This document shows positions 1,480-52,455 of a DNA stretch of 64,000 nt, piece by piece. Position 1 is the stretch's first letter; each line of letters starts with the position of its first letter. The translations under genes were made by a program, and so were the position numbers. The notes beneath the pieces were generated by a model. That model saw only the letters and a list, made by a program, of their open reading frames with translations, did not search any database and was not told where the DNA came from. This stretch comes from Iocasia fonsfrigidae (lineage in GTDB: Bacteria; Bacillota; Halanaerobiia; Halanaerobiales; DTU029), in contig NZ_CP046640.1 of NCBI RefSeq assembly GCF_017751145.1, forward strand, positions 1,592,137 to 1,656,136, given 5' to 3'.

Positions 1480-2283
1480 CTGTTAAAAATAAAAGATTGG
1501 TTTAATCCAAATGACGATAGCAAAACAATTATCTCAGCCCAAGAACACATAAAAAGTTCTCATGGATATCAGAATTACAATATTAAGTTAGGTAATACTA
1601 CATTATTATTTGAAACAGGCATAGCTATACCATATATTGAAGAAAATTATGACACATCTATATTAATAGATAAATTACCTGGATTTTTATATAATCCAAA
1701 ATGTTTAAAATTTAAAAATAATGAAGATCTTAATTTGATTCAAGGAGGATATGGTTCGCCTGCCGCAATTGATACACTAGAAACTATTATTGCAATGGGT
1801 ACAAAAAGAGTTGTTATCTTTGGGATGTGTGGAGGAATTGGGAAAGATTTAGAGGTAGGAGATTTAATAATTCCTAAAGAAGTAATTAGAGAAGAAGGAA
1901 CTTCTTATCATTATTTAAAAAGTGGGATTAATTCTGAACCAGATATAGAATTATTGCATAAAGCTGAGAATTTTTTTACAAAACATTATGAGAAAAAAAC
2001 ATTTACTGGTAAGACAGTTAGTACAGATGCAGTTTATAGACAAACAATAAATAAAGAAAAGAGTTGGAGAGAAGAAAGTATTTTAGGAATAGATATGGAA
2101 TCATCTGCTTTGCTAGCGGTTTGTTCTTATTATAAGATACCTGCAGTATCTATACTTATAGTATCAGATAAACATAATTTAGATGATAAAGAGGATTGGA
2201 ACTGGGGTTCTAAAAGTTTCAATAATGATAGAAAAAAGGCTATTGATTTGTGTATTAAGTTTGTGGCGGGTTACATCGTCTAA
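1480..2283 (+). CDS. Nucleoside phosphorylase / MTA-SAH nucleosidase family protein (cassette gene)
   Basis: The frame is open from 1378 and encodes about 268 residues if started near 1480. It contains QGGYGSPAAIDTLE, a glycine-rich FGMCGGIGKDLEVGDLII and GIDMESSALLA, matching the phosphate/nucleoside and ribose-binding (ME) motifs of PNP_UDP family enzymes. The likely role is cleavage or phosphorolysis of nucleosides. No ATG, GTG or TTG gives the full length. The first good standard start, TTG at 1735, would remove the N-terminal third, so a rare start (CTG 1480 or ATA 1489 behind GGAAAGGA at 1472) or read-through from attC is possible. The TAA stop lies inside the R'' box of its attC. Confidence 0.7.
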   Translation: MLKIKDWFNPNDDSKTIISAQEHIKSSHGYQNYNIKLGNTTLLFETGIAIPYIEENYDTSILIDKLPGFLYNPKCLKFKNNEDLNLIQGGYGSPAAIDTLETIIAMGTKRVVIFGMCGGIGKDLEVGDLIIPKEVIREEGTSYHYLKSGINSEPDIELLHKAENFFTKHYEKKTFTGKTVSTDAVYRQTINKEKSWREESILGIDMESSALLAVCSYYKIPAVSILIVSDKHNLDDKEDWNWGSKSFNNDRKKAIDLCIKFVAGYIV

Positions 2284-2406
2284 CAAATCAGGAGTATTTC
2301 CGCAATTGAGCCAAAAAGAAAACCCAAATCAATAATAATAAATATGATTTGAGCTTTTCAAATCTGCTAAACTATGAGATACAATTGAGGAAATACTTTG
2401 TTGAAC
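2278..2406 (+). repeat. attC-like hairpin, type 2 (linked to IS91-like element)
   Basis: R'' GTCTAAC (2278-2284) is the exact complement of the start of the nucleosidase cassette (GTTAGAC at 1450). A long hairpin follows, with arms GGAGTATTTCCGCAATTG and CAATTGAGGAAATACTT, ending in GTTGAAC (2400-2406). The same hairpin recurs at 17186, 51694 and 54164, always next to the end of the IS91-like element. It may therefore be an attC or the element's own terminus. Confidence 0.65.
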
Positions 2407-2566
2407 GAAGCTGCGGCGCTCAAGATATTAATCTATGGATTTTTAATAAATCTTCAAATCATTAAAATTAAATAAAAGATATAAACATAAATAAGAACCC
2501 AAGAAATAACAAGAAAAAAACTAAAAAATAGCAACCCAGGGATGCAAGTTCCCCCTCCCCATAAAG

Positions 2567-3755
2567 TCAATTTTTATAAAATTTAAGAATTAGATCTGGA
2601 GGGCCTTTAAAGTTTCTGGGTAACTCATCTTCAGTAACAAATTTATGACAACCACATACAGGACACTTTTTAATTTCAAGACCGAGTTTTTCAATAAGCT
2701 GATCAGTAGAAAGTCTAATATATTCAATAATCTTTGTACTGGTAAGTTTTTTACATAAAAGAAGTTTGGTCTTTCGGTTTCGACTGCCCATAATACCAAA
2801 GTAACGGATCTTTTTGAATCTCTTTGGTAGGATATGCATAAGAAATCTTCTGATAAATTCAAAGACATGGAGTGTCATAAATTTCTTTTTATTTTTATGC
2901 TTATAATCTTTATACGTAAAAGTGACCTGATGATTCTTCACTTTAACAATTTTGTTATTGGCAATAACAACCCGATTTGTATATTTAGCAAGATAGTTAA
3001 CAACATAGGAAGCATTTTTAAAAGTCTTTTCACAAAAGACAACCCAATTTTTATTGTACAAAGTATCAATAAAACCCTGATAACTTCTATTATCATTTAA
3101 AAAATTAATATCACCATAGAAATTAATATTACCTGCTAACACTTCTTTTTTAAAGAAAGCCAGAAATTTACCTCTGAACTTTTTAGCAATAACTTTAACA
3201 GGCATAAAGAAATTATTTTTTGACTTAATCCATTGATTAATAGATGATAATCCCCCTGCAGGTATGATACAATGTAAATGAGGGTGAAAAGAAAGAGTCT
3301 GTCCCCAGGTATGCAAAACAGCAGTAATGCCGATTTGTGCACCAAGATATTTTTTATCAAGAGCAAGTTCCTGCAATGTCTCTGAAGCGGCCTTAAAGAG
3401 AAGCGAATAAAAAATTCTTTGATTTTTAAGAGCAACAGAATTAAAATCAATCATCAGGAACAGTAAAAACAACATGAAAATACTTTTCATTAAGCATATT
3501 AGCCTGTTGTTTAAGAATCCACTGTTCTCGCTCAAGGCCCTGACATTTAGGACAATGCCTGTTACGACAGGAATTATATGAGATGCTTAAGTGACCGCAT
3601 TCTACACACTTATCAATATGTGCACCCAAAGCAGAAGTACGGCAGTTAATCAAAGCCTGGATAACATTAAAGGCATTATGGTGGACAGGAAAATTCTTTT
3701 TAAACTCATCCCAATATTGGATTAAAATGTCCTGAATCTCAGGCATTTTTATCAT
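2567..3755 (-). pseudogene. IS91-family Y2/HUH transposase, frameshifted
   Basis: The N-terminal 102 residues (3755 down to 3447) carry a zinc-binding domain (CVECGH ... CRNRHCPKCQ). The rest, read in another frame to 2567, has the HUH motif (FHPHLHC), the double tyrosine YLAKYTNR and a second CPVCGCHK zinc knuckle. The frames break at about 3447-3455, where GATT is repeated in the coding strand (GATGATTGATTTTAAT). Removing 4 bases restores VPDD-FNSVALKN. The family moves by rolling-circle single-strand transfer. This copy is probably inactive unless a frameshift rescues it. Confidence 0.85.
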
Positions 3756-4587
3756 AGCTTAAGGTATCAAGGGGGCTTTTTATCTTAAGCACTATTGTAT
3801 CTCTTAAATGGAGATACAAGCTAGTTGTTTTGATGCTGGCGTGTCCCATGAGTTGTTGAATATATACAAGGTCAACGCCAGCATCAAGCAAATGAGTAGC
3901 AAAACAATGTCTCAGTGTATGAAGAGAGGCCTCTTTTGCAATACCCGCATCAATTCTGGCTTTACGAAATTCTTTCTGTGGTGTTCTGGAACTCAAATGA
4001 ATCTCAGGATTTTGTCCCGGGAAAAGCCAGTATTGAGGTTTATATTCTCTGTAATAATCACGTAGAATATCAAGATTAATATTTGACAAGAGGGTATGTC
4101 TATCTTTATAGCCCTTACTCTGATTAACAATAATTTTCATACTGTAACTATCAATATCTTTAACTCTCAATCTAACAACTTCTGAAACACGCAACCCACC
4201 ACTATAAATAGTATAGAAGATAGTCTTGTGTTTAAGATTATTAACCCTATCAAAAATAGCCTGAATTTCTTTTTTGGAGAGGATAACAGGGAGTTTTTTC
4301 TGTTTTTTAGCTCTGGGAATATACTTAATATCCCAGTGTTGATCAAGGGTTGACTCAAAAAAGAAGCGCAGAGCACTATATGCCTGATTAACATATCCTG
4401 TACTTAAATTTCTTACATCAATGGCATGAGCAAGAAATTCTCTGATATGATCTGAATTAAGAGAATCAGCATCAGAATCAAAGAACTTCTCAAAATGTTC
4501 AATATGTCTGAGATGACAAACCTGGGTTCTACTACTGAAATTTCTTAACTTCATGTCCTGAATCATTTTTTCTTTGAAAACTGTCAT
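3739..4587 (-). CDS. Xer-like tyrosine recombinase of the IS91-like element
   Basis: A protein of about 282 residues with a SAM-like N-terminal core-binding domain and a catalytic domain. It shows the box I arginine (GGLRVSEVV), a beta-hairpin lysine (SKGYKDRH), HTLRHCFATHLL, and GHASIKTTSLY with the tyrosine. It overlaps the transposase start by 17 bases, so the two are co-translated. An in-frame ATG lies 9 bases upstream of the chosen start, but AAGGAG is right against it, so the second ATG fits better. The RRHH patch typical of integron integrases is absent, so it is unlikely to be IntI. Confidence 0.85.
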   Translation of the reverse strand: MTVFKEKMIQDMKLRNFSSRTQVCHLRHIEHFEKFFDSDADSLNSDHIREFLAHAIDVRNLSTGYVNQAYSALRFFFESTLDQHWDIKYIPRAKKQKKLPVILSKKEIQAIFDRVNNLKHKTIFYTIYSGGLRVSEVVRLRVKDIDSYSMKIIVNQSKGYKDRHTLLSNINLDILRDYYREYKPQYWLFPGQNPEIHLSSRTPQKEFRKARIDAGIAKEASLHTLRHCFATHLLDAGVDLVYIQQLMGHASIKTTSLYLHLRDTIVLKIKSPLDTLSYDKNA

Positions 4588-4704
4588 AAACCACATCTCC
4601 TTAAAATTTTTTATTCTATTTTACATAAAGATGTGGTGAAATTAAATAGACTTATTTGAGGATTATATGTTATGCTAGGAGAAAGCCACTGCGTTAGCAG
4701 TTTT

Positions 4705-4817
4705 GTTCAACAAAATATTGCCGACTCCATTCCTGACGTCATTTCGTCCAAATCCATCAGACCAAGATAGGAGCTATCTAAGGTCTGATGGACTTCAGCA
4801 ATACGGTTACGTTATGC
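4705..4817 (+). repeat. attC recombination site, type 1
   Basis: GTTCAAC (4705-4711) to GTTATGC (4811-4817). The inner arms are CCATCAGACC and GGTCTGATGG, separated by AGATAGGAGCTATCT. Apart from the GTTC contributed by the IS91-like element, this is a standard site. Confidence 0.88.
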
Positions 4818-6425: not shown

Positions 6426-6844
6426 GGAAGTGGTCATAAGCAAGGATTTGATACCTTTTATGCTTTTAGAACAAAGCACCAATACTCAGGTAAATTTAAC
6501 AAAGAATTTGAAACCGATATGCCTGATTAACATATCCTGTACTTAAATTTCTTATATCAATGGCATGAGCAAGAAATTCTCTGATATGATCTGAATTAAG
6601 AGAATCAGCATCAGAATCAAAGAACTTCTCAAAATGTTCAATATGTCTGAGATAACAAACCTGGGTTCTACTACTGAAATTTCTTAACTTCATGTCCTGA
6701 ATCATTTTTTCTTTAAAAACTGTCATAAACCACATCTCCTTAAAATTTTTTATTCTATTTTACATAAAGATGTGGTGAAATTAAATAGACTTATTTGAGG
6801 AATTATATATTATGCTAGGAAAAAGCCACTGCGTCAGCAGTTTT
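6426..6844 (-). mobile_element. Truncated IS91-like element (recombinase 5' end only)
   Basis: 6520-6844 is about 97% identical to 4376-4704: the right terminus and the first ~65 codons of the tyrosine recombinase on the minus strand (MTVFKEKMIQ... at 6726 downward). Bases 6426-6519 are unrelated. They read as about 30 codons (GHKQGFDTFYAFRTKHQYSG) ending just inside the element, perhaps a relic of a former cassette gene. Confidence 0.8.
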
Positions 6845-6955
6845 GTTCAACACAGTATTGCCAGTTCCACTCCTGTCGTCGTTCCACCTAAATTCAGGTA
6901 CCTAAATAAGAGCTATCTAAGGCCCCCTGAACTTCGGCAAACCTATACGTATATG
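6845..6955 (+). repeat. attC site, type 1, degenerate right end
   Basis: GTTCAAC (6845-6851) leads into ACAGTATTGCCAG and ACCTAAATTCAGG. The right end reads ACGTATATG instead of the expected ACGTTATATG, so one base of R' appears lost. Confidence 0.75.
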
Positions 6956-8750: not shown

Positions 8751-9030
8751 GACATGATATAATGAAAAAATACAATATCAAATTCATTAGACTGTGTAGA
8801 CAGGCGGTTGGTTAAATGGACGATGTGTAAATTTAAAAGATTTAGGACACAGAAAGAGAGCAGAAAGATGGCTATCTGAAGTGCAGAAGAGAGATCCTAA
8901 TTTATTTGCACACTGGCAATACCGGAATAGAAATATTAATATGGGTTGAATGATAAGAGCCGGATGAAGAGAGACTTTCAAGTTCGGTTCTGTGAGAAGC
9001 TTGAGGTGAAAATCCCCTGGCTTACTCGAT
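8751..9030 (+). mobile_element. Group II intron 3' remnant
   Basis: 8833-8949 encodes the last 38 residues of an intron maturase (GHRKRAERWL ... NLFAHW). Domain V follows at about 8958-8992 (GAGCCGGATGAAG with CAAGTTCGGTTC), then domain VI and an end at CTTACTCGAT. It differs in sequence from the 1-720 intron, so it is a separate lineage. It replaces the right half of the attC at 8714. Confidence 0.75.
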
Positions 9031-10653: not shown

Positions 10654-11165
10654 GAAATATTTTAAATACTTTAATACTACTGATCGTTTAAAATAAGGAG
10701 GAGAATAAAACAATGGATGAAAATATTAAATGGCACCAAGCTATGAAAATAGAAAGAATACTAGATAATATTAGAAATAATAATATGAAGGGTTTTTATG
10801 TGAAGACTCGGGAAGATTTGATTAACAAAATAAAGGAACTTGTTTCGGAGAGATCTGTCGTTGGAGTTGGAGATTCAATGACATTATTTGAAACTGGCAT
10901 TATAGATTTATTAAGAAAAGAAAATTATATATTTTTAGATAAATATAAAGAGGGCTTAACAAGAGCTGAAAAAGATAAACTTTATTCAGATATTTTTAGT
11001 GCTGACACTTTTTTATGTAGTACAAATGCAATCACAGAAAAAGGAGAATTATATAATATAGATGGGTACGGGAATAGGGTATCTGCAATGTAAGCGTCAA
11101 ATATAACCCACATTCCTTACAGCCGAAATCTATGAGATAATTTCCCTGAGGGAGGTTATTTGAAG

Positions 11166-11486
11166 ATGAATAACAAACGTGAAATCTGGATTGAAAGAAT
11201 CCAGGATTACAAAGCAAGTAGTTTAACTGCTGCCAAATGGTGTGAAGAGAATGGTCTAAACATTAATTCTCTAAGATACTATATTCATAAATTTAATAAG
11301 GAAAAGAAAGAACAGGAATCTAGTCAAACTAAATGGACAGCTGTATTTCCTGCCCGAGCAGAAAATAACAATTCTGAAACTAAAACCATAAAAATAACTA
11401 TAGGTCAGGCGATCATAGAGGTCGTTCCAGGTTTTGATTCTAATACTTTTGAAACTCTTATCAGGATTCTTAAAGAACAATGTTAA
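11166..11486 (+). CDS. tnpA: IS66 TnpA accessory protein
   Basis: A ~106-residue protein with an N-terminal helix-turn-helix-like segment (EIWIERIQDYKASSLTAAKWCEENGL ordering) followed by a charged linker and a C-terminal strand region (GQAIIEVVPGF). It is the usual first gene of IS66 elements. It overlaps tnpB by 7 bases, suggesting coupled translation. A TTG at 11160 is an alternative start closer to GGAGG. Confidence 0.85.
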   Translation: MNNKREIWIERIQDYKASSLTAAKWCEENGLNINSLRYYIHKFNKEKKEQESSQTKWTAVFPARAENNNSETKTIKITIGQAIIEVVPGFDSNTFETLIRILKEQC

Positions 11487-11836
11487 ATCAGCATCATATC
11501 AATAAAGTATATTTATCCCTGGGGCCTACAGATCTTAGGAAATCAATCAATGGCCTATCCTTAATAGTTCAGGAGAGTTTTAAGCTCAATCCCTTTTCTC
11601 ATGACCTCTTTGTCTTCTGTAACAGAAAGCAGGACAAGCTCAAAATTCTGGAATGGGATAATGATGGTTTCTGGTTACACTACAAACGCCTGGAAAAAAG
11701 CAGATTCAGATGGCCTGATGGTACTACTGGCTCTACAGTAATGATTGATGAAAGACAATTCAGGTGGTTACTTGATGGTTTATCTATTCATCAAAAAGGT
11801 GCTCATCCTGCCGTTAAAGAAAGAATAATCATCTAA
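11480..11836 (+). CDS. tnpB: IS66 TnpB (Orf2-like) accessory protein
   Basis: 118 residues with the conserved TnpB sequence: GPTDLRKSINGLS, FSHDLFVFCNRKQDKLKILEWD and FWLHYKRLEKSRFRWP. It is full length for the family. Needed with TnpA for IS66 movement, though its exact biochemical role is not settled. It is separated from tnpC by a 98-base gap with its own promoter-like AT-rich stretch. Confidence 0.92.
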   Translation: MLNQHHINKVYLSLGPTDLRKSINGLSLIVQESFKLNPFSHDLFVFCNRKQDKLKILEWDNDGFWLHYKRLEKSRFRWPDGTTGSTVMIDERQFRWLLDGLSIHQKGAHPAVKERIII

Positions 11837-11934
11837 AATAAACTTTAGACAAAAGGCTCAAAAACATTGTAAAATCAGAGCTTTTACGCTTAATTTTAGT
11901 ATCTTTTTTCTCCTAAAAATGATATAATAAACTT

Positions 11935-13530
11935 ATGAAAACTACTGATAAATCAACGACTATACAAGTTAATAAAGAAGAAAATCAAGAGCTATCTTTA
12001 GAAGATAAAATTGCAATACAGGCTCAACAAATTGAAGAATTGACAGCTAAATTAAACTGGTATGAGGAACAATTTCGCTTAAACCAACAAAGGCGATTTG
12101 GTGCTTCTAGTGAAAAATCTAATTCTAATCAGTTATCAATTTTTAATGAGGCTGAACAGGAAGCTAAGGTCAGTCTCAAAGAAGCTGAACTTGAGGAGAT
12201 TACATATAAAAGACGTAAGGGCAAAAACAAAAAGAAAAAGTCCTTCGAAGATCTCCCTGTTGAAGTCATTGAATATCATCTAGATGAAGCTGAGCAGATC
12301 TGTCCGCAATGTGGTAAGCAACTTCATGTCATGAGTAAGGAAATTAGAAAAGAATTAAAGATTATTCCTGCTCAGGTTAAGGTTGTTGAACATGTTCGTG
12401 ATGTTTATGCCTGTAGAAATTGCGAAAAGGAAAATATCACAACTCCAGTAATTACTGCTCCTATGCCTAATCCAGTTTTAAAAGGGAGTTTTCTCTCTCC
12501 ATCGTTACTGGCATATATCATGGATACCAAATATTCTCAAGCAGTACCTCTTTACAGACAGGAGAAACAATTTAAGAATTTTGGCATTGAGCTATCCCGT
12601 CAAAATCTGGCTAACTGGGTAATCCATGGAGCCAACAACTGGCTTAACTATCTATATGATAGAATATATGAATATTTATTAAAAGAAGATATCGTACATG
12701 CTGATGAAACTACACTTCAGGTTTTATCTGAAAAAGGTAAAGCAGCTAAAAGCAAATCATATATGTGGCTCTATGCTACTGGAGTTTCCAGTCCACCGAT
12801 CTACTTATATGAATATCAACCTTCCAGGGCTAATGAACATCCGAAGAAGTTCTTAACTGGATTCAGTGGGTTTCTTCAAACCGATGGCTATGCTGGATAC
12901 AATAGTGTTCAGAACGTCACCCAGCTCGGATGTTTCGCTCACGCTAGACGTGGTTTCACAGATGCCTTAAAGGCATTACCTAAAGGCTCTGTTCACTTAA
13001 AAACTAATGCTGAGGAAGGTCTGAATTTCTGCAATCGACTCTTCCAGATTGAACGGGACTTAAAAGACTTATCAGCTGAAGAAAGATATCAAAAACGCCT
13101 TGAACAAAGCAAACCAGTTCTGGAGGCCTTTTTGTCATGGCTAAAAATCAAGGAACAACAGACTTTACCTAAAAGTGGTCTCAGCAAAGCTATTAAATAT
13201 TGTCTCAATCAATGGCCTAAACTAGAAGCCTTTCTCCTGGATGGTAGACTAGAGATCAGTAATAATCGGGCAGAAAGAGCAATCAAGCCCTTTGTTATTG
13301 GGAGAAAGAACTTTCTATTTTCCAAGTCGGTAAAAGGAGCTACAGCCAGTGCCATTACTTACAGTATCATAGAGACCGCCAAAGCAAACAACTTAGTACC
13401 ATTCTTTTATCTAAAATATCTTTTTGAGAAACTACCCAACATTGATCTACAAAATATTGAACAATTAGATGAATTATTACCTTGGTCTCAATCTATTCCG
13501 GAAGAATGCAGGATTCCTCATAAGAATTAG
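11935..13530 (+). CDS. tnpC: IS66 TnpC transposase
   Basis: A 531-residue DDE transposase. It has an N-terminal coiled-coil (EDKIAIQAQQIEELTAKL), a CPQCGKQL zinc-binding segment, then the catalytic core with HADETTLQVL (first Asp), TDGYAGYNSV (second Asp) and NNRAERAIKPF (Glu). A C-terminal IS66 domain follows. It is full length with no breaks, so this IS is potentially active. Confidence 0.95.
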   Translation: MKTTDKSTTIQVNKEENQELSLEDKIAIQAQQIEELTAKLNWYEEQFRLNQQRRFGASSEKSNSNQLSIFNEAEQEAKVSLKEAELEEITYKRRKGKNKKKKSFEDLPVEVIEYHLDEAEQICPQCGKQLHVMSKEIRKELKIIPAQVKVVEHVRDVYACRNCEKENITTPVITAPMPNPVLKGSFLSPSLLAYIMDTKYSQAVPLYRQEKQFKNFGIELSRQNLANWVIHGANNWLNYLYDRIYEYLLKEDIVHADETTLQVLSEKGKAAKSKSYMWLYATGVSSPPIYLYEYQPSRANEHPKKFLTGFSGFLQTDGYAGYNSVQNVTQLGCFAHARRGFTDALKALPKGSVHLKTNAEEGLNFCNRLFQIERDLKDLSAEERYQKRLEQSKPVLEAFLSWLKIKEQQTLPKSGLSKAIKYCLNQWPKLEAFLLDGRLEISNNRAERAIKPFVIGRKNFLFSKSVKGATASAITYSIIETAKANNLVPFFYLKYLFEKLPNIDLQNIEQLDELLPWSQSIPEECRIPHKN

Positions 13531-13861
13531 CCTATCATAACGTCCTCAATTTTTCCAGGTGGGGACGTTTTGACGCTTACTCTGCAATGATTTTTGGCCC
13601 TAAACAAGTTATTATTGTAGCTGGAAAAAATAAAATAGTTAAAGATTTAGAAGAGGCAAAAAATAGAGTTAAGAATATAGCAGCTCCTATTGATGCAAAA
13701 AGGCTTAATAAAGATACTCCATGTACAAAAGTTGGATATTGTGTAGATTGTAGTTCGAAGGATAGAATATGTAATAATATAACAATAATAAAAAGACAGC
13801 TTAAAAAAAACCGAATTAAAATTATTATAGTTGACGAAAATTTAGGATACTAAAATACTTC

Positions 13862-13890: not shown

Positions 13891-14046
13891 ATGGATGTAA
13901 ATAATCATAACAGTAAAGCTTGGGATTATAGTGTTGATTCAGGTAACATTTGGACTCAACCAGTAAATAAAGAAGTTATGGAAAAGGCAAAAAGGGGAGA
14001 ATAGGAAATATTTCTATCTCCAACAAAAAGAGTTCCAAGAAGTTGG
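13891..14046 (+). pseudogene. SAM methyltransferase, N-terminal fragment with a nonsense codon
   Basis: MDVNNHNSKAWDYSVDSGN then IWTQPVNKEVMEKAKRGE, then TAG at 14002 where a Trp is expected, then EIFLSPTKRVPRSW in the same frame. This is the start of a common UbiE-like methyltransferase family (NxxxxAWDxxVExGNxWTxPV). The gene is cut at about 14046 by the group II intron fragment, before any SAM-binding motif. Confidence 0.7.
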
Positions 14047-14741
14047 TTATGCATTCGATAAATGGATGGAAAGGACATTTCCAAAAAGATATGCGGATGA
14101 TGCGGTAATACATTGCAAAACCAAGAAGGAGGCAGAAAAATTATACATTCAATTAAAACGAAGGTTGAAAGAGTGTAAGTTAGAACTGCATCCGGATAAA
14201 ACGCGCATTGTATATTGTAAAGATGATGACCGTAGGGAAGAGCATGAAAATATAAAATTTGATTTTCTTGGATATACATTCAGACCTAGGAGCTCAAAGA
14301 ATCGTTATGGTAAGTATTTCATTAACTTTACACCTGCTGTGAGTAACAAAGCATGTAAAGCAATAAGACAGGTCATCAGAAACTGGCGGATACATCTTAG
14401 ACCAGATATAGAATTAATAGATATATCCAGAATGTATAATCCTATAATTCGTGGTTGGATAAATTATTATGGTCGTTATTATAAATCTGCATTATATCCG
14501 GTATTAAAACACTAGAACAGAGCTTTGGTGCACTGGGCGAGAAGAAAATACAAGAAGTTGACCAGGCATAGACGGCGAGCAGAACGCTGGATGGGACGTA
14601 TAGCAAAGAAAATGAAAAGATTGTTCGCACATTGGAAGATGGGAATATTACCAACGGCTGAATAATGGGAGCCGGATGAGCTGAGAGGTTCACGTCCGGT
14701 TCTGAGAGGGCCTGGAGGTGAAATTCCTCCGGGCTACTCAC
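14047..14741 (+). mobile_element. Group II intron, 5'-truncated copy
   Basis: Related to 1-720 (about 95% identity in the shared part). Domain V at about 14669-14704, 3' end at ...GGGCTACTCAC (14741). It starts inside the reverse transcriptase, so everything up to RT domain 4 is missing. Confidence 0.8.
14066..14662 (+). pseudogene. Group II intron reverse transcriptase fragment with a nonsense codon
   Basis: Begins just before the catalytic RYADDAVIHC motif and runs through the GIIM domain (RGWINYYGRYY). A TAG at 14513 replaces the TTG present at 494 in the other copy. Reading continues in frame to AHWKMGILPTAE at 14662. It lacks RT domains 0-4, so it is inactive. Confidence 0.85.
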
Positions 14742-14899
14742 CTTGTCCTGACAAGGAGTAAAATTACAATCGTGGTAACACGGTGACGATGGCTTACTCC
14801 CTGTGATGGGGCAACGGTTACGGTAAGCTGTATACGGGAGGAACCGTACGTGCAGTTTGACGAGGGGTCCCAGTCGAAAGACTGGTCCTACTCTATTAT
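14742..14899 (+). mobile_element. 3' remnant of a second group II intron lineage
   Basis: Contains TACGGGAGGAACCGTACGTG with CAGTTTGACGAGGGG and an end at CCTACTCTATT, resembling domain V/VI of a group II intron different from the one on its left. No protein is left. The junction with the IS91-like fragment is at about 14899. Confidence 0.55.
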
Positions 14900-15159
14900 A
14901 CAAAGCATCAACAAAATCCTGATAATTTTTATCACTATTAAAATAATCAATATCAGCATAAAACTTAATATTACTAGCTGAGACTTCTTTTTTAAAGAAA
15001 GCAAGGAATTTACCTCTAAACATATTGGCAATAACCCTGACAGGAATAAAGAAATTTTTTTTGGACTTAATCCATTGATTATTAGGTGATAATCCCCTTG
15101 CAGGTATGATACAATGTATGTGAGGATGAAAAGAGAGTGTTTGTCCCCAGGTATGTAAA
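14899..15159 (-). mobile_element. IS91-like transposase fragment
   Basis: Minus-strand sequence similar to 3056-3316. It encodes the centre of the Y2/HUH transposase: HTWGQTLSFHPHIHCIIPA (HUH motif) through NNQWIKSKKNFF to FFKKEVSASNIKFYADI. Both ends are missing. Confidence 0.8.
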
Positions 15160-17185: not shown

Positions 17186-17308
17186 ATATAACAAATCAGG
17201 AGTATTTCTGCAATTGAGCCAAAAAGAAAACCCAAATCAATAATAATAAATATGATTTGAACTTTTCAAATCTGCCTGAGATGCAATTGAGGAAATACTT
17301 TGTTGAAC
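17186..17308 (+). repeat. attC-like hairpin, type 2
   Basis: ATATAAC (17186-17192) then the arms GGAGTATTTCTGCAATTG and CAATTGAGGAAATACTT, ending GTTGAAC (17302-17308). About 90% identical to 2284-2406 although the upstream gene is different. Confidence 0.7.
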
Positions 17309-17480
17309 GGAGCTGCGGTGGTTTACACTTAATACTATGGGGTTTTAATAATTTCACTCTTACTAAAAACTATATATTTAGTGATATAATAATTTAATTT
17401 CAAGAAATAAAAAAAACCTAAAAAATAGCAGGATAAGGGTGCAATCTCCTCCTCCCCATAAAATTATTTTTTTAAATTGA
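17309..17480 (-). mobile_element. IS91-like element, transposase-side end only
   Basis: GGAGCTGCGGTGG through ACCTAAAAAATAGCAGG to CTCCCCATAAAATT is shared with 51824-52215 (where a 220-bp element interrupts it) and more distantly with 2407-2560. The transposase gene is gone, and the sequence switches to the 805-bp duplicated segment at 17481. Confidence 0.7.
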
Positions 17481-18876: not shown

Positions 18877-19889
18877 TTGATAACATTTTTAAATCCTAAT
18901 GAGTATAAACACCCCTATATTGCTTTTATTTCCCGGCCCACCTGGATCTGGGGGGCCGAAATGGGTGTTAATCAATATGGGCTTGCCATTGGCAATGAAG
19001 CGATTTTTTCCAGAGAAAGGGTTCCAGAAGATGGTCTATTGGGTATGGATATTTTAAGGTTGGCCTTACATAACTGTCAGAAGGCAATAGAGGCAGTAGA
19101 TTTCATTACCAGGTTAATTGAGCTGGTTTTAAAAGCAGCCTAAAATATTTTAACTCTTTTCTAGTTAAGGATTTTACAGAGGCTTATATCATTGAAACAT
19201 CTGCCAAGAAATGGGCTGTCAGGAAGGTAAAAAGTAAAGCGGCTATCTCCAATAAATATAGTATTGAGAATGATTATACTTCAACTAATCTGAAAAATAC
19301 TGATATCAATTTCAGAAAGGAATATGAAAATAAAATTATGTCATTTTTTAGTAAAGGGGCACAGAGAAAAGATTATGTACTGGCCCAATTGGAAAGTCAG
19401 GACCTGGACTTGTTTAGTTTAATAGAGTTATTAAGAAGTCATAATGGTCAAGGCACGATTAAGAGAGGAATGAAGTCAGTTTGTATGCACCCGGGATTAA
19501 TAATAAAATCAGAGACCACCTCATCTTTAATAGTTGATTATCTAGATGATAAATTTTTTATCTGGTTTACAGGTGCACCTAATCCCTGTGTCTCTTTGTA
19601 TAAACCTTTTGCCTTTACTTTACAAAATGCTAATCAAAAATATCTTCAAGATCTCGATACGGCAATTAGATTTAATCATAAGTGGAGGGTGTTTTCTCAA
19701 AAAATGATAGGCAATTATAATTGGTTTATTAATAATGTTAAAAAAGAACGGGATGAAATTGAGCAGGAATTTATTTTGCAGATTGATAAGGTAATTGATA
19801 ATAAAAATGATAAGGAATTAAGTAAGCTTATTCTTGAATTAACAAACAGAGCGGAGGAATTCAGGGAGAAATATGTTTTGTGTAAATAA
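18877..19889 (+). pseudogene. Peptidase C69/secernin-like protein, truncated and internally deleted
   Basis: 18877-19143 encodes NEYKHPYIAFISRPTWIWGAEMGVNQ and GLAIGNEAIFS, characteristic of dipeptidase/secernin (Ntn-hydrolase) proteins, then a stop. The frame that resumes at about 19168 gives DFTEAYIIETSAKKWAVRKV and continues to 19889 with FIWFTGAPNPCVSLYKPF. The N-terminal nucleophile cysteine region and about 20 codons in the centre are missing. It is cut on the right by the recombinase fragment. Confidence 0.7.
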
Positions 19890-20441
19890 GAAATTGGGAT
19901 TAAGGTACTATAGTCTAAATGAAATAAAAAAGGTTATTCAAATAACTCAGAATTTAAAACATAAAACAATATTGGTATTTATTTATTCTTCAGGTTTAAG
20001 GGTAAGTGAAGTAGTTAAAATTAAGATGAATCATATTGATATTGAAAGGAAAATGTTAAGAGTCCCTCAAGGTAAAGGTAAAAAAGATAGATATACAATT
20101 TTATCTGATACTGCTCTTTTGTATCTTCGAGCATATAGATCAAAATATAAAATTTATGAATGGTTATTTCCAGGACGGGGAGAAAAACATTTAAGCGTAA
20201 GGTCTGTTCAAAAAATTTTTAAAAAAGCAGTTAGTAAAGGAATATAAAAAAAGATGTATCTGTTCATTCATTACGCCACTCATTTGTAACACATCTTTTA
20301 GAAAACGGTACTGATATCAGGTATATCCAAGAGTTTTTAGGTCATAAAAGTACTAAAACTACAGAAATATATACCCATGTAAGTAAAACACAATATAAAA
20401 AGATTAAAAGCCCATTAGACCAACTACTAAAAAATCAGTGA
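19890..20441 (+). pseudogene. Tyrosine recombinase catalytic-domain fragment, frameshifted
   Basis: Has box I SSGLRVSEVVKIKM, a lysine hairpin GKGKKDRYT, then a frame change at about 20245 in an A-rich run, then [14 protein letters not shown] and [13 protein letters not shown] with the catalytic tyrosine, ending [12 protein letters not shown]. The N-terminal DNA-binding half is absent. It resembles the recombinase at 3739-4587 but is a distinct lineage. The spacing between boxes leaves no room for the integron-integrase patch. Confidence 0.8.
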
Positions 20442-21511: not shown

Positions 21512-23390
21512 GTGCGCCAAGAAAAGAGCATATCATATAGTAGGTGGGATTCCTACTGAGGAAGGTTTAGCAAACCACTCATAGCGAGTTTTGGACATTT
21601 AATGGGTAACCATAGATGTTAAGCGTAAACAGTTAGGTAGTAGGCGGTAAGCATTTAGCTGAAGGGATTGAGCCTCGAAATCTTGGAGATTGGGAAAGGC
21701 CGATGCTGTCGACTGAGCAGAAGGCAACATTATAGTATTCGATAAGCGAGAATACAATAACACCCCGGGGTCGGAGACCTCCGCATGCTATACATAGATA
21801 TGATATTGTTAACTTGGGAGGCCCTGTAATTTCTACGCAGAGAGATAGGATGTAACCAAGCGATAACAAAGTAAGGACATCTAATATTACAGGGAGTCGG
21901 ATAATCGCATAGTACCGAGGAAGCAGAGTAATGCCTGTGGATGGGAAGGAGATTACACAAGATTAATCTTAAAAGGGAAACATATTCTATACACAGAGAT
22001 AGGTGAAAATGTGGAAACGAAACTTGCAAGAATAGCTGAAGTAGCTAGAAATAGACCTAATGAAAGATTTACATCACTAATACATCTAATTAATTATGAA
22101 TTGATAGTCAAATGTCATCATGAACTAGCTGGAAACAAAGCAGCTGGAGTAGATGAAGTAACAAAAGCGGAGTATGGAAAGAATCTTCCAGGGAATGTTA
22201 AGAGCTTAATAGCTAGAATGAAAAGATGGGCATATAGGCCATTACCTGCGAAAAGGGTATATATTCCAAAAGAAAATGGGAAGAAGAGACCGCTAGGGAT
22301 TCCAGCATACGAAGACAAACTAGTTCAAAAGGCACTATCAAAGATTCTAAATGCGATATATGAAGAAGACTTTCTTGAATGTTCATTTGGTTTTCGTCCA
22401 GGAAGAAACTGTCATGATGCCTTGAGAATATTAGGAAGAATAGTTAACAGAGATGATATTAACTATGTAGTTGATACAGATATTAAAGGATTCTTTGATA
22501 ATGTAGACCACGGGTGGATGATGAAATTCATTGACCATCGAATTAAAGATCCTAATATACAACGACTCATATCGAGACTTCTTCGGGCTGGAGTCATGGA
22601 GGCAGGAATAAAATATGACACTCCACAAGGAACACCGCAAGGTGGAGTCTGTTCTCCAATTATGGCGAATTTATATCTACATCATGTTGTTGACCTATGG
22701 TTTAATAAAACAATGCGTAAAGAGTTAAAGGGTAAAGCTTACATGGTGAGATACGCAGATGATATAATATTTTGCCTACAGTATAAAGAAGATGTAAAAT
22801 ACTTCTATAAAGCAATGAAAGAAAGAATATCCAAATTCGGTTTAGAGTTATCAGAAGAGAAAACTAAGATAGTAAATGTATCTGCTGATGATGACAATGA
22901 CACATTTGATTTTCTTGGATTTACCCATTATATGGGTAAATGTAAGGATGGAATCAAACGACTAAAGAGAAAGACAAGTAATAAGCGATATCATCGTAGT
23001 ATAATGAGATGTAAATCCTGGCTAAAATATAATAGAACTCTTCCAGTAAAAGAACTTATGAGGAAGTTAAACAGAAAACTAACAGGAACATACAACTATT
23101 ATGCAGTATCAGATAACAGCAAAAGTATTGATAGCCTGTATGATGAGGTTCAAAAGCTAGTTTATAAATGGTTAAACAGACGCAGTCAAAAGAAAAGCTT
23201 TGACTGGGAGAAGTTCGAAATATTCTTGGAGAAATATCCTATTGTCAAGCCAAGAATAAAAGTAAATTTATATAGATTAGGTGCTGGTGCTAGTTATGTT
23301 AGGTGAATAATCGAGTGAAGAGCCGTATGCCTAAATAGGGCACGTACGGTTCTGTGAGGAGTTGGGGTTGTAAAGCCCCGCTTACTCGAC
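21512..23390 (+). mobile_element. Group IIC (attC-targeting) intron, full length, 1879 bp
   Basis: Starts GTGCGCCAAGAAAAG (5' GTGYG consensus) and ends CTTACTCGAC (3' AY). Domain V at about 23317-23352 (GAGCCGTATGC / GCACGTACGGTTC), and domain VI is TTGGGGTTGTAAAGCCCCG. It encodes an intact reverse transcriptase without an endonuclease domain. It is inserted between G and C in the loop of an attC hairpin. A copy of identical length lies at 45800. Confidence 0.93.
22011..23306 (+). CDS. Group II intron reverse transcriptase/maturase (class C)
   Basis: 431 residues. RT domains include GIPAYEDKLVQKAL, SFGFRPGRNCHDAL, DTDIKGFFDNVDH, QGTPQGGVCSP and the catalytic YADD at 248-251, then LGFTHYMG and a maturase domain (GTYNYYAVSDN). 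It ends PRIKVNLYRLGAG with no HNH endonuclease, as in class C introns that use single-stranded or hairpin targets. It starts at GTG behind AGGTGA. It supports splicing and retrohoming. Confidence 0.93.
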   Translation: METKLARIAEVARNRPNERFTSLIHLINYELIVKCHHELAGNKAAGVDEVTKAEYGKNLPGNVKSLIARMKRWAYRPLPAKRVYIPKENGKKRPLGIPAYEDKLVQKALSKILNAIYEEDFLECSFGFRPGRNCHDALRILGRIVNRDDINYVVDTDIKGFFDNVDHGWMMKFIDHRIKDPNIQRLISRLLRAGVMEAGIKYDTPQGTPQGGVCSPIMANLYLHHVVDLWFNKTMRKELKGKAYMVRYADDIIFCLQYKEDVKYFYKAMKERISKFGLELSEEKTKIVNVSADDDNDTFDFLGFTHYMGKCKDGIKRLKRKTSNKRYHRSIMRCKSWLKYNRTLPVKELMRKLNRKLTGTYNYYAVSDNSKSIDSLYDEVQKLVYKWLNRRSQKKSFDWEKFEIFLEKYPIVKPRIKVNLYRLGAGASYVR

Positions 23391-23992: not shown

Positions 23993-24069
23993 ATATATAG
24001 ATTAGAAGCAAGATAAAGAAGGCATCACGGCGAAGTCTAAGTGGACCTTATGCTTCCGTACACACCTTC

Positions 24070-24181
24070 ACCTAACAAAATATTGCCGACTCCATTCCTG
24101 GCGTCATTTCGTCCAAATCCATCAAACCAAGATAGGAGCTATCTAAGGTCTGATGGACTTCGGCAATACGATACGTTATGC
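24070..24181 (+). repeat. attC recombination site, type 1
   Basis: ACCTAAC (24070-24076) to GTTATGC (24175-24181). Arms CCATCAAACCAAGATAGG and CTATCTAAGGTCTGATGG. Nearly the same sequence as the site at 4705. Confidence 0.9.
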
Positions 24182-24220
24182 AAAATATGCCGTAGATTGT
24201 ATTAAATGGAGGTCAAAAAT

Positions 24221-27246: not shown

Positions 27247-27408
27247 GAAATCGAGGGTAGTTAGGTTAAAATCGGGTAGTAAAAATAATCAATTTAAAGG
27301 ATATAGAAAGGACGACATATGGAGCTATATAAGTAAGCGTCAAATATAACCCACATTCCTTACAGCCGAAATCTATGAGATAATTTCCCTGAGGGAGGTT
27401 ATTTGAAG

Positions 27409-27729
27409 ATGAATAACAAACGTGAAATCTGGATTGAAAGAATCCAGGATTACAAAGCAAGTAGTTTAACTGCTGCCAAATGGTGTGAAGAGAATGGTCT
27501 AAGCATTAATTCTCTAAGATACTATACTCATAAATTTAATAAGGAAAAGAAAGAACAGGAATCTAGTCAAACTAAATGGACAGCTGTATTTCCTGCCCGA
27601 GCAGAAGATACCAATTCTGAAACTAAAACCATAAAAATAACTATAGGCCAGGCGATCATAGAAATCGTTCCAGGTTTTGATCCTAATACTTTTGAAACTC
27701 TTGTCAGGATTCTTAAGGAACAATGTTAA
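27409..27729 (+). CDS. tnpA: IS66 TnpA accessory protein
   Basis: Same 106-residue protein as at 11166-11486 with a few changes (SINSLRYYTHKF, ARAEDTNSE, EIVPGFDPN). Frame intact, overlapping tnpB by 7 bases. Confidence 0.85.
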   Translation: MNNKREIWIERIQDYKASSLTAAKWCEENGLSINSLRYYTHKFNKEKKEQESSQTKWTAVFPARAEDTNSETKTIKITIGQAIIEIVPGFDPNTFETLVRILKEQC

Positions 27730-28079
27730 ATCAACATCATATCAATAAGGTGTACTTAGCCCTAGGGCCTACTGATCTTAGGAAATCAATCAATGGCCTA
27801 TCCTTAATAGTTCAGGAGAGCTTTAAGCTCAATCCCTTTTCTCATGACCTCTTTGTCTTCTGTAACAGAAAGCAGGACAAGCTCAAGATTTTGGAATGGG
27901 ATAATGATGGTTTCTGGTTACACTACAAACGCCTGGAAAAAAGTAGATTTAGATGGCCTGATGGTACTACTGGCTCTACAGTAATGATTGATGAAAGACA
28001 ATTCAGGTGGTTACTTGATGGTTTATCTATTCATCAAAAAGGTGCTCATTCTGCCGTTAAAGAAAGAATAATCATCTAA
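27723..28079 (+). CDS. tnpB: IS66 TnpB accessory protein
   Basis: 118 residues, two substitutions from the copy at 11480 (YLALGPTDL and KGAHSAVK). All conserved TnpB positions are kept. Confidence 0.92.
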   Translation: MLNQHHINKVYLALGPTDLRKSINGLSLIVQESFKLNPFSHDLFVFCNRKQDKLKILEWDNDGFWLHYKRLEKSRFRWPDGTTGSTVMIDERQFRWLLDGLSIHQKGAHSAVKERIII

Positions 28080-28177
28080 AATAAACTTTAGACAAAAGGC
28101 TCAAAAACATTGTAAAATCAGAGCTTTTACGCTTAATTTTAGTATCTTTTTTCTCCTAAAAATGATATAATAGACTT

Positions 28178-29773
28178 ATGAAAACTACTGATAAATCAAC
28201 GACTATACAAGTTAATAAAGAAGAAAATCAAGAGCTATCTTTAGAAGATAAAATTGCAAGACAGGCTCAACAAATTGAAGAATTGACAGCTAAATTAAAC
28301 TGGTATGAGGAACAATTTCGCTTAAACCAACAAAGGCGATTTGGTGCTTCTAGTGAAAAATCTAATTCTAATCAGTTATCAATTTTTAATGAGGCTGAAC
28401 AGGAAGCTAAGGTCAGTCTCAAAGAACCCGAACTTGAGGAGATTACATATAAAAGACGTAAGGGCAAAAACAAAAAGAAAAAGTCCTTCGAAGATCTCCC
28501 TGTTGAAGTCATTGAATATCATCTAGATGAAGCTGAGCAGATCTGTCCGCAATGTGGTAAGCAACTTCATGTCATGAGTAAGGAAATTAGAAAAGAATTA
28601 AAGATTATTCCTGCTCAGGTTAAGGTTGTTGAACATGTTCGTGATGTTTATGCCTGTAGAAATTGTGAAAAGGAAAATATCACAACTCCAGTAATTACTG
28701 CTCCTATGCCTAATCCAGTTTTAAAAGGGAGTTTTCTCTCTCCATCGTTACTGGCATATATCATGGATACCAAATATTCTCAAGCAGTACCTCTTTACAG
28801 ACAGGAGAAACAATTTAAGAATTTTGGCATTGAGCTATCCCGTCAAAATCTGGCTAACTGGGTAATCCATGGAGTCAACAACTGGCTTAACTATCTATAT
28901 GATAGAATATATGAATATTTATTAAAAGAAGATATCGTACATGCTGATGAAACTACACTTCAGGTTTTATCTGAAAAAGGTAAAGCAGCTAAAAGCAAAT
29001 CATATATGTGGCTCTATGCTACTGGAGTTTCCAGTCCACCGATCTACTTATATGAATATCAACCTTCCAGGGCTAATGAACATCCGAAGAAATTCTTAAC
29101 TGGATTCAGTGGGTTTCTTCAAACCGATGGCTATGCTGGGTACAATAGTGTTCAGGACGTCACCCAGCTCGGATGTTTTGCTCACGCTAGACGTGGTTTC
29201 ACAGATGCCTTAAAGGCATTACCTAAAGGCTCTGTTCACTTAAAAACTAATGCTGAGGAAGGTCTGAATTTCTGCAATCGACTCTTCCAGATTGAACGGG
29301 ACTTAAAAGACTTATCAGCTGAAGAAAGATATCAAAAACGCCTTGAACAAAGCAAACCAGTTCTGGAGGCCTTTTTGTCATGGCTAAAAATCAAGGAACA
29401 ACAGACTTTACCTAAAAGTGGTCTCAGCAAAGCTATTAAATATTGTCTCAATCAATGGCCTAAACTAGAAGCCTTTCTCCTGGATGGTAGACTAGAGATC
29501 AGTAATAATCGGGCAGAAAGAGCAATCAAGCCCTTTGTTATTGGGAGAAAGAACTTTCTATTTTCCAAGTCGGTAAAAGGAGCTACAGCCAGTGCCATTA
29601 CTTACAGTATCATAGAGACCGCCAAAGCAAACAACTTAGTACCATTCTTTTATCTAAAATATCTTTTTGAGAAACTACCCAACATTGATCTACAAAATAT
29701 AGATGAATTGGATGAATTATTACCCTGGTCTCAATCTATTCCTGAAGAATGCAGGATACCTCATAAGAATTAG
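28178..29773 (+). CDS. tnpC: IS66 TnpC transposase
   Basis: 531 residues, six or so substitutions from the copy at 11935 (for example EPELEEI, HGVNNWL, NIDELDELL). The catalytic Asp-Asp-Glu residues in HADETTL, TDGYAGY and NNRAERA are unchanged, so it should be active. Confidence 0.95.
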   Translation: MKTTDKSTTIQVNKEENQELSLEDKIARQAQQIEELTAKLNWYEEQFRLNQQRRFGASSEKSNSNQLSIFNEAEQEAKVSLKEPELEEITYKRRKGKNKKKKSFEDLPVEVIEYHLDEAEQICPQCGKQLHVMSKEIRKELKIIPAQVKVVEHVRDVYACRNCEKENITTPVITAPMPNPVLKGSFLSPSLLAYIMDTKYSQAVPLYRQEKQFKNFGIELSRQNLANWVIHGVNNWLNYLYDRIYEYLLKEDIVHADETTLQVLSEKGKAAKSKSYMWLYATGVSSPPIYLYEYQPSRANEHPKKFLTGFSGFLQTDGYAGYNSVQDVTQLGCFAHARRGFTDALKALPKGSVHLKTNAEEGLNFCNRLFQIERDLKDLSAEERYQKRLEQSKPVLEAFLSWLKIKEQQTLPKSGLSKAIKYCLNQWPKLEAFLLDGRLEISNNRAERAIKPFVIGRKNFLFSKSVKGATASAITYSIIETAKANNLVPFFYLKYLFEKLPNIDLQNIDELDELLPWSQSIPEECRIPHKN

Positions 29774-29943
29774 CCTATCATAACGTCCTCAACTTTTCCA
29801 GGTGGGGGCGTTTTGACGCTTACGTAGATTAAACCAAATTCTTTCCGATGTATTATGGGGATATTTAAAAAATAAAGATAAGATGAATTATATTAAATTC
29901 AAATAAGGTTTTATAAAGTATAGACGTGGGCGCCTCAGCCATC

Positions 29944-31429: not shown

Positions 31430-32533
31430 AGCTAACAATGAGTTTACGGCTCCACTATCGTTACACCCAAATTGATGAACCTAAGCCAAGTCTGGCTAAG
31501 GCTCATCAACTTCGTGGACGCGGCCATTAATGCCGATAATCTAGCAAGGTGAAAGTCCTTGTATCATTAGTTGACCGAATTAGATGATTAGCATATCCAA
31601 CGTACGGTGAGGTAACGAACCGTGATGATGCTTGGGGTGTAAAAGTCGCAGTGGCCTTATACTACGCAGAGAGGATAGGTCAGAACAGTCTGAGCGACGA
31701 GCAAACCTGGGGGTTTGAAGGAAGGAAACGAATACTGCAGCCTCGAAATCATTACCCTTCTGAAACTGTTGAAGGGATAAATGCCTAGCGTCGACCTGTT
31801 TCCAAGTCAGGGAAGACCATGCTTTGTAGGAAGAAACGGTTAAAGGCACTACAAAGGCAGCCGGGGTATGGGTTCTTACACCCAGGGAAAGATTATCGGA
31901 GTAACGACGGGAAAATCCTACTTCCAGCTGGGATTCGTCATAACCAGCAAAGACGATGCTTATAGGGGTACAACCTAAAAGTAGAGAGGACTTAGGATTG
32001 TCGCATGAGCTTATAGTAGCTATGAGAACTAGGTAATACTAGTTTAAGTAATGAAGGGACATTACTCCAGGAGAGGTAACACCTCAAATGGGCAAAGGGG
32101 CTCTCGGTAGATGACGGACATTTAAAGGAAATACTGTCCAGACACAGTGCTGGGATATCAGTATCAACCTCAATAAATGTCGAGCTTATAATCAAACTGT
32201 ATAATTAATGAGAGTACGTAGGCGAATACTTAAATCTGTAATTATATAGGAAGGGTTATTAGGGAAAGTTGTCGCTGCCAACCGGATTCGGGAAAACCGA
32301 CCGTCCGGGATGAGAGGGGGGCTCTGGGGAACGTGATTTGATGACTTATTTACAATAGGACCAACGTAAATACCCGATGGTAAGGGACACAGAGAGTGAA
32401 GAGAACCGATATCAGGTAACCTTTGCTACCTGGCTATCTTAGGAAAAGTGAAGGTCGTTGAATGCTTTGAGTAATTTAAGTTAGCAGATGTGCGCACCCA
32501 GTTTCTACCCGACAAATGCCTGGCACGTTATGT
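31430..32533 (+). repeat. attC site, type 1, interrupted by an intron-like insertion
   Basis: Left part 31430-31513 (AGCTAAC ... GGCTCATCAACTTC), right part from about 32509 (CCGACAAATGCCTGGCAC) to GTTATGT (32527-32533). The insertion falls on the 3' side of the inner stem, not at the apex used by the group IIC introns. Confidence 0.8.
31514..32508 (+). mobile_element. Group II intron-like structured element without ORF (~995 bp)
   Basis: Begins GTGGACGCGGCC and includes CAAGGTGAAAGTCCTTG, a motif common in domain I of group II introns. It ends near GTTTCTAC. No reading frame above 90 codons is credible. A strand-wide pattern of short G-rich stem-loops suggests a large folded RNA. I could not place a convincing domain V, so the class is uncertain and the exact ends could shift by a few bases. 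Confidence 0.5.
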
Positions 32534-49982: not shown

Positions 49983-50849
49983 GTGCGACCAGCCCCCGCC
50001 ATAACAGGGACTAAGCTATATCCTAGGCTGTCTAAGTCAACAAAAAAAAGTTGACCTTTGGACTACCTATTCTATTTGAGGTAACCCTACTTATGGGTGC
50101 ATTGCTGGTAACGGTTTTGTGCTGAGCCATAAGGACAATGTGAACTATCCTGCTAGCCTTAAAGTAGGTGATTGCTAGGGTAAATATACTGCTAAGGTTA
50201 AATTAATTGAATTACTGCAAGCTTCGTAAAACGTGAATAGTGAAATTAGGCTGAAACACTATGACCAAAAGGTGTGAGATGGGGTCAAGTAAGTTTTCGT
50301 GTTGCTTGACAAATAGACCAATGTCTCCGGAGTAAAGGTAGAACCTAAGGTAGTATGAATTGGCTAAGATATAGAACTGGGTAACCCCAATATGTTCCTG
50401 AGAAAATGATATCTCAGGTAGGTCAATAGATTTATGATACAATATATAGTGGGTATGGGAAATAGGAAGAAGCGAAGGTCATCTTGTAATGAGGTGAATA
50501 AGGGTTCAAAATTTGTCTTACTCTGAAAGGAGGCAGACGTCCTATGGGTCATTCAAGGCAGTAAAGGTGAGAAACTTTATGAATATGGCAAGCCAAATAA
50601 CTCATTAGAGTGGGCGACCATAGACCAAAACAAGTGACAATTCCAATGGAAATAATCTTCCTGAAGATTGTCAATGTAGAGGGTTAATAGACTTCGAACC
50701 CGAATCGCCAAAGCAATAATGAAAGAATTAATCAAGTAATTATTGTTTGCTAGTTGCCAGGACTAGTTTTGAAGGGCTTGAGCCGTATGAGTTGAAAGGC
50801 TCATGTATGGTTCTTATGGGGGAAGGGAGCCGCAAGGCTCCTGACCTAC
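49983..50849 (+). mobile_element. ORF-less group II intron (~867 bp)
   Basis: Begins GTGCGACCAGCCCC (5' GTGCG) four bases after the attC R' box. A full domain V lies at about 50779-50813 (GAGCCGTATGAG / CTCATGTATGGTTC), followed by domain VI (GGGAGCCGCAAGGCTCC), and it ends near CTGACCTAC. It has no reverse transcriptase, so it depends on a helper. Sequence differs from the group IIC copies, so it is another lineage. Confidence 0.8.
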
Positions 50850-51699: not shown

Positions 51700-51823
51700 C
51701 AAATCAGGAGTATTTCCGCAATTGCAAGAAAGTAAAAGCCCAAATAAATTTTTAAAAGATTTCATTTGAGCTTGAAAATATGATTAATTAAAAATATGCA
51801 ATTGAGGAAATATCTTGTTGAAC
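51694..51823 (+). repeat. attC-like hairpin, type 2
   Basis: GCCTAAC (51694-51700), arms GGAGTATTTCCGCAATTG and CAATTGAGGAAATATCTT, ending GTTGAAC (51817-51823). Third gene context for the same hairpin. Confidence 0.7.
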
Positions 51824-52455
51824 GAAGCTGCGGTGATTTACACTTAATACTATGGGGTTTTAATAATTTCACTCTTACTAAAAACTATATATTTAGTGAT
51901 ATAATGGTTTGCCCACAAAAAGGTCATCTCTCGCAGCAAGGCAAATTTTTTGAGTCATCTAAGGCCCGTATCCATTCAAAATAAGGTTTCCTAATCCATG
52001 GGACATCCTGACCCAGGATTAGCTCACCACGTCCTGTGCTTCGACCTTATTTTGAATTCCTACGTGCCAAGATTCCTTACAAAAAATTTGCTATTTGCTC
52101 AATATAACCTTTTTGTGTTTGAATCATATAATAATTTGATTTCAAGAAATAAAAAAAAAAAAACCTAAAAAATAGCAGGACAAGGGTGTAATCTCCCCTC
52201 CCCATAAAATTAAGTTTTTTTAAATTGATAATTTGAAGCAGGTGGTGACTTAATATTTTTTGGTAATAGTTCTTTTAGCTTGAATTTTTAGTACAGCCAC
52301 AAACAGGACATTTCTTAAGATTTAGCCCAAGTTTCTCAATAAGCTGGTCTGTTGAAAGCCTGATATATTCAATAATCTTTGTTCTGGTTAGTTTTTTACA
52401 TAACAGTAGCTTAGTATTACGATTTCTACTGCTTATAATACCGAAATAGCGGATT
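51824..52455 (-). mobile_element. IS91-like element remnant (transposase 3' end)
   Basis: GAAGCTGCGGTG ... ATAGCAGG is the element end. 52215-52455 on the minus strand encodes the transposase tail (RNRNTKLLLCKKLTRTKIIE, RLSTDQLIEKLGL, KKCPVCGCTK). The rest is deleted. A 220-bp inverted-repeat element interrupts it. Confidence 0.8.
51906..52125. mobile_element. MITE-like 220-bp inverted-repeat element
   Basis: Flanked by the 7-bp duplication ATATAAT (51899-51905 and 52126-52132). The empty site is visible at 17390-17410. Almost the entire element is one long hairpin: GCAAATTTTTTGAG pairs with the AAAAAATTTGC near 52090, ATTCAAAATAAGGT with ACCTTATTTTGAAT, CCTAATCC with GGATTAG. No coding capacity. 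Confidence 0.75.

Follow-up and report, generated by a model that had tools for sequence, protein, structure and literature searches.

Results

The locus and its features

The window, meaning the whole stretch of 64,000 nt that was analysed, is part of the 3.93-Mb, single-contig genome of Iocasia fonsfrigidae (G000) and carries an array of gene cassettes with attC sites. An element encoding an IS91-family transposase and a tyrosine recombinase is found in this array in several copies, most of them decayed. One copy alone, at 2284-4710, is full length, and in it the transposase gene carries a frameshift. The features referred to below are:

2278..2284, plus strand: R'' box GTCTAAC, the target, belonging to the upstream nucleosidase-like cassette; its complement matches the cassette start at 14/16 positions
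2284..4710, minus strand: mobile unit of 2427 bp; crossover AA|C on the plus strand (N|TT on its own strand), placed by comparing junctions across copies
2285..2406, minus strand: attC-like 3' hairpin (spacer, L', loop, L'') with the inner box GTTGAAC at 2400-2406; constant in all copies
2400..2416, minus strand: 3' terminal inverted repeat (recombinase box), complementary to the 5' end, a layout that recurs in 18 + 6 elements
2567..3755, minus strand: IS91-family Y2 (HUH) transposase (NF033538), frameshifted into ORFs 3755-3447 and 3535-2567
3739..4596, minus strand: IntI-like tyrosine recombinase, 285 aa, assigned by TIGR02249, 2A3V and the tree
4684..4711, minus strand: 5' end with a small hairpin CTGC-GTTA-GCAG, TTTT and GTTCAAC (terminal inverted repeat), from sequence and comparison
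4711..4817, plus strand: remainder of the host attC, with R' box GTTATGC at 4811-4817
6517..6848, minus strand: second copy, reduced to the recombinase N-terminus and the 5' end, 93% identity, with an attC core beyond
14894..15159, minus strand: transposase fragment of another copy, 85% identity (55% protein identity)
17193..17476, minus strand: 3' end and hairpin of another copy, 80% identity, after R'' ATATAAC of a fabG-like cassette (R'' 13/16)
51701..52454, minus strand: decayed copy (hairpin, body pieces) after GCCTAAC, 76-78% identity
54171..54301, minus strand: decayed 3' end of another copy after ACCTAAC, 76% identity
105-716, 8760-8945, 13990-14745, 21520-23390, 31530-32000, 49985-50860: group II intron-like sequences or fragments, recognised by eye, in or adjoining attC sites, several of them cutting attC cores

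Read on the minus strand, the unit starts with G|TTGAACAAAACTGC (5' repeat) and continues through the recombinase, the transposase, the inverted 5' repeat CTTCGTTCAAC and the hairpin, which ends CTCCTGATTTG|TT at the host R''. The 2285..2406 hairpin joined to the 5' end gave predicted folds of -31.0/-33.1 kcal/mol (z -7.5/-8.3 against mononucleotide shuffles). At the ORF and profile level no reverse transcriptase ORF, as expected of a group IIC-attC intron, was found within 2284-4710, and a search of a phage collection gave no match.

A profile search of the whole genome found no integron integrase above the curated cut-off of TIGR02249, a level reached in 2 of the 398 phylum genomes sampled, and the array looks like a CALIN, an attC cluster without an integrase. 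The same genome has a second set of attC-like sites at 2.440-2.470 Mb (L050, L051), on the minus strand, that resembles those of the main array. Two near-identical IS66-like elements lie inside cassettes at 11097-13577 and 27334-29824. Also within the array is another kind of IntI-like tyrosine recombinase, again lacking the IntI insert, present as a pseudogene at 19883-20440 of the window and intact at 1.543 Mb (L003, G000 1543402-1544202), which is a member of a stand-alone clade found in many Bacillota.

Junctions of the element with host cassettes

The sequence-only reading had placed an IS91-like element, equipped with its own recombinase and ending like a cassette, exactly in the R'' boxes of attC sites, and the junctions bear this out. 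The four left junctions that it named are exact, with AAC ending at 2284, 17192, 51700 and 54170 and followed each time by AAATCAGGAGTATTTC. It had also proposed mapping both junctions in related genomes. With the search widened to all of G000 and to 100 relatives, the left junctions numbered nine. Six are in G000, two of them half-ends outside the window at 1,533,133 and 1,485,331, and three are in the relative G003. All nine lie directly after R'', and every copy has the pattern yyTAAC|AAATCAGGAGTATTTC, apart from one with TAAG in place of TAAC (8/9 and 1/9). At four sites the complement of the R'' flank matched the start of the same cassette at 15/16, 14/16, 13/16 and 14/16 positions; R'' therefore pairs with the start of the interrupted cassette itself and is a property of that cassette. 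The same comparison gave no good R'' pairing partner at the remaining left-junction sites.

Six right junctions were found, at 4705-4711, near 6845, at 1,565,313 and 1,536,250, and two in G003. Each reads GCAGTTTTGTTC|AAC and then resumes an attC core, the sequence of which differs from one junction to the next; the R' boxes beyond include GTTATGC, GTTAGGC, GTTAGGT and GTTAGAC. Both right ends that had been described, at 4705 and 6845, do leave GTTC|AAC and enter an attC as claimed, but the attC past 6845 is not a normal one, as its R' is degenerate (GTATATG). The body was likewise said to begin GTTGAAC and end GTTCAAC, which holds at 2400-2406 and 4705-4711, whereas in the copy at 54170 GTTGAAC has become CTATTGCA.

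Intact attCs with the same core and an ordinary R'' are present in the array, for example at 24064-24185, and the host attC remainder at 4711..4817 is 94.7% identical to the part at 24074-24185. Comparison of the junctions with intact attC sites indicates that removing the element and joining its flanks restores an ordinary attC of the array; no unoccupied ortholog of an insertion site was found. By the sequence-only reading, hairpins lacking the element would break the link. Truncated hairpins with no body do occur (L044, L045, L060), and these look like decay.

The hairpin is constant at all sites and the distal attC is different at each, which identifies the mobile unit as the element plus the hairpin, not the body plus the distal attC. 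Relative to the array this unit is inverted and always at R'', in G000 and G003 as well as at the attC-like sites of other Bacillota and of ISWz1-like elements described below.

The recombinase and the transposase

The best curated match of the recombinase is the integron integrase profile TIGR02249, at 196.9 bits against a cut-off of 265, and its closest PDB chain is 2A3V, a Vibrio integron integrase. Profile positions of about 171-234, which correspond to the IntI-specific insert, are unmatched, and the protein therefore falls short of an integron integrase on both counts. This insert is the part that integron integrases use on folded attC. An SPLD motif lies near the C-terminus. A structure predicted from one sequence had a mean pLDDT of 36 and was not used.

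In a tree of 45 recombinases, in which L137 was labelled IS91-linked though no transposase was seen beside it, 20 IS91-linked recombinases formed one clade (support 98/95), with that of L137 outside the main IS91-linked clade. The IS91-linked and stand-alone recombinases together with IntI were split from XerC/XerD (100/99), and IntI itself formed a single clade (100/99). Elements that target attC fall on at least two branches within the IS91-linked clade. A TnpF beside tet(X3) on pHH1107 (L139 3052-3717) is a relative of these recombinases and lies outside the IS91-linked clade.

The two pieces of the transposase scored 125.7 bits (N-terminal piece) and 296.7 bits (the rest) with NF033538 (cut-off 125), and Zn_Tnp_IS91 and Y2_Tnp also match, so that it has both the Y2 HUH and the zinc-binding domain of the IS91 family. 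It is in one frame in G003 and G019. The encoded proteins match only the IS91 transposase and tyrosine recombinase families, and no DEDD transposase of the IS1111-attC kind is among them.

A control is provided by a canonical IS91 of a different kind (30-31% identity), present in G000 as eight copies outside the main array. Their ends read hairpin-TTTT|GTTC with varied flanks, as expected of an IS91 element whose ori end abuts GTTC or CTTG with no further conserved end. The unit studied here, in contrast, continues through the hairpin to N|TT.

Relatives and their insertion sites

Transposase searches of the 398 phylum genomes found relatives in 23, most with an adjacent recombinase, and plasmids of Proteobacteria and Bacteroidota carried further recombinase-transposase pairs. 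The left end of the relatives is target-NTT|G followed by a box (ACTAAACCGC-like), and the right end is an inverted box, a stem, a spacer and NTT|target, with CTRR-like bases after the 3' stem in most of them. Joining the ends gave attC-like folds in 24 elements from Bacillota, Proteobacteria and Bacteroidota, including ISWz1-like ones. All of the first 18 circle junctions fold, with top-strand z from -2.6 to -9.1 against mononucleotide shuffles, and six Bacteroidota elements, one of them on a Myroides plasmid whose paper names ISWz1, have compact attC-like folds. In the predicted site the terminal inverted repeats pair as the outer boxes, a spacer by the crossover stays unpaired, and a stem forms further in; compared with a textbook attC, the crossover-side spacer of the Bacillota elements is the more one-sided. 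The longest run of inner-stem pairing was 10.7 with an element's own arms and 5.0 with arms swapped between elements. Because the stem sequences differ and yet pair within each element, this amounts to covariation.

The calling of flanks as attC used no dedicated detector but the R' box, the pairing of rejoined R'' and R' and the presence of repeats within the contig; a simple attC score of our own reached p<0.05 for 8/13 attC flanks and was too weak to classify them, which is why those features were used instead. Outside G000 and G003, elements with GTTG ends lie backwards at R'' of attC-like sites in seven of 11 insertions, across five Bacillota genomes: G019, G408, G104 (two), G180 (two) and G239. 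Judged informally, this is far above what chance would give from the small share of a genome that attC makes up. Repeats of attC-like sequence recur in the same contigs in G104, G180 and G239, and the rejoined R'' and R' are complementary, by reading, in G180 (GTTATCTGCTGTCGG / GTTATCTGCAATCGG) and G408 (GTTAGGCG / GTTAGGCG). The other four of the 11 are elsewhere, in an apparent coding sequence on G180 contig 36 and in G179, G142 and G069. The expectation that copies keep to attC cores fails for some distant relatives. On G069 contig 25 (L173) the hairpin of the element is also present as a solo copy, and the element directly follows it, as though this copy had been the target.

Five of six ISWz1-like copies are in attC-like sites at R'' and in the same orientation, and the sixth (L187) is probably also in an attC-like site, with R' not found. 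These elements (L187-L192) are on Bacteroidota plasmids, some beside resistance genes, and the hairpin end was seen as a solo copy in L194 and L195.

One insertion in G104 has ATA|TT on its element side but G|TT on the side of the target, a difference that locates the crossover at N|TT, the position used in integrons. Elements with an 8-nt spacer form a class found outside attC. In the clearest cases their two ends have 5-8 bp in common (AGACATT, TATGGATA, CAAAGAA and GGATT), as would be expected of the overlap of a recombinase.

Discussion

A probable cassette, inserted backwards

Viewed on its own coding strand, the unit is better described as a cassette, running G|TTGAAC, recombinase, transposase, attC-like site. 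In common with integron cassettes it has genes with an attC, and R'' and R' are complementary in the predicted circle junction of the 18 + 6 elements. It departs from them in always being inverted relative to the array and in crossing over at R'' where a cassette would use R'. We propose, at a probability of roughly 0.7, that the element is a self-contained backwards cassette, likely inserted by its own IntI-like recombinase through a folded strand at N|TT of R''. The HUH transposase would most likely supply a single-stranded or circular form, the joined ends would fold into an attC-like site on a single strand, and the recombinase would most likely join this folded strand to N|TT of the host R''. 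The consistent use of R'' and not R' suggests that one folded target strand, or a difference between the box spacers, may be recognised.

This proposal draws on the boundaries, the ownership of R'', the foldable and covarying junctions, the fixed orientation and the IntI-like recombinase. Counting against it are the missing insert of the recombinase, the one-sided spacer of the Bacillota elements, the frameshifted transposase in the window and the decay of most copies.

It could instead be that the Y2 transposase alone moves the element by a rolling circle, with the hairpin acting as an extension of the origin end and a folded attC offering the target GTT. The encoded enzyme is, after all, of the IS91 family, HUH enzymes work on single strands, and the reversed 5' end (hairpin-TTTT/TTTA-GTNC) resembles the canonical ori end in G000 (hairpin-TTTT-GTTC); since the 3' hairpin and the CTRR-like bases resemble helitron-type ends, an HUH enzyme could use the same structure. 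However, the canonical G000 copies end at GTTC, possess no such unit and lie outside arrays, which weakens the idea of a plain IS91 element aiming at GTTR, while terminal inverted repeats and 5-8 bp overlaps are recombinase features and most hit loci keep a recombinase gene next to the transposase. We therefore regard a transposase acting alone as unlikely. More unlikely still is movement as a passive cassette by a host integrase, or one formerly present, acting in trans. The ends do resemble a cassette with attC, and PMC12772301 concluded this for ISCR28, but G000 has no integrase above the TIGR02249 cut-off, such matches are scarce in the phylum (2/398), the same architecture is found outside arrays too, and insertion is always backwards at R'' and not at R' in the cassette direction.

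Along the array the body does stand between two attC sites, as it would if an IS91 element had been captured by a normal cassette that then spread with the distal attC. Capture predicts a constant distal attC and varied hairpins; the opposite was observed, and this reading is contradicted and hardly credible. Of the two explanations put forward in the sequence-only reading, a rolling-circle element targeting GTTR and a cassette that had captured the element, neither fits as worded.

Relation to known elements

Returning to the backwards cassette with its own recombinase, parts of it have precedents. ISWz1 is catalogued in the IS91 family, and IS91 elements with an added recombinase are already known, ISWz1 having been reported near tet(X) and further resistance genes; the accessible text of these reports (PMC9751785, PMC11322121) does not mention attC targeting. 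ISWz1-like elements share with ours the gene pair and its order, the TTGAACTAAACC-type start, the attC-like 3' end and insertion at R'' (5-6 of 6), and differ in their diverged proteins and compact attC-like site. An attC has been described at or right after ISCR28 (PMC12772301), and ISShvi3 adjoins an attC, giving a new cassette structure (PMC9229058); as far as the accessible parts of these sources go, both are treated as passive cassettes or single cases, and we liken them by description and not by their ends.

Insertion sequences of the IS1111-attC group target one attC end (PMC11187229). They differ in having a DEDD transposase with a guide RNA and no tyrosine recombinase. To our knowledge, no attC-like end is known for this group. 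Group IIC-attC introns insert into attC in the orientation opposite to that of the cassettes, and do so even where the array lacks an integrase (PMC7923331), but are retroelements that enter at or beside the attC stem-loop. Strand-biased circularizing (SE) elements use tyrosine recombinases and form circles from one strand, whereas no attC-like inverted-repeat structure was detected at their sites (PMC9345347), a comparison made here by description. With integron cassettes and IntI the element shares the G|TT-type junction, the folded attC and a recombinase of the same wider clade; it differs in encoding that recombinase itself, in the recombinase lacking the IntI insert and in lying backwards at R''. 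In the literature searched, largely outside subscription journals, we found no account of how the ends are built, of the R'' rule or of the recombinase probably being the mover, and priority for these is unproven.

A wider, and more doubtful, possibility is that recombinase-bearing IS91 elements in general are autonomous single-strand cassettes, a sister branch of integrons, that also move attC cassettes in trans where no integrase is present. Cassette arrays without an integrase are widespread and poorly explained, and an IntI-like recombinase that homes to attC, carried by an element with an attC-like site of its own, is a candidate driver for them. The element bears on the origins of integrons, and its mode of insertion would explain how ISWz1-type elements, which in Bacteroidota are known near tet(X) and further resistance genes, place themselves.
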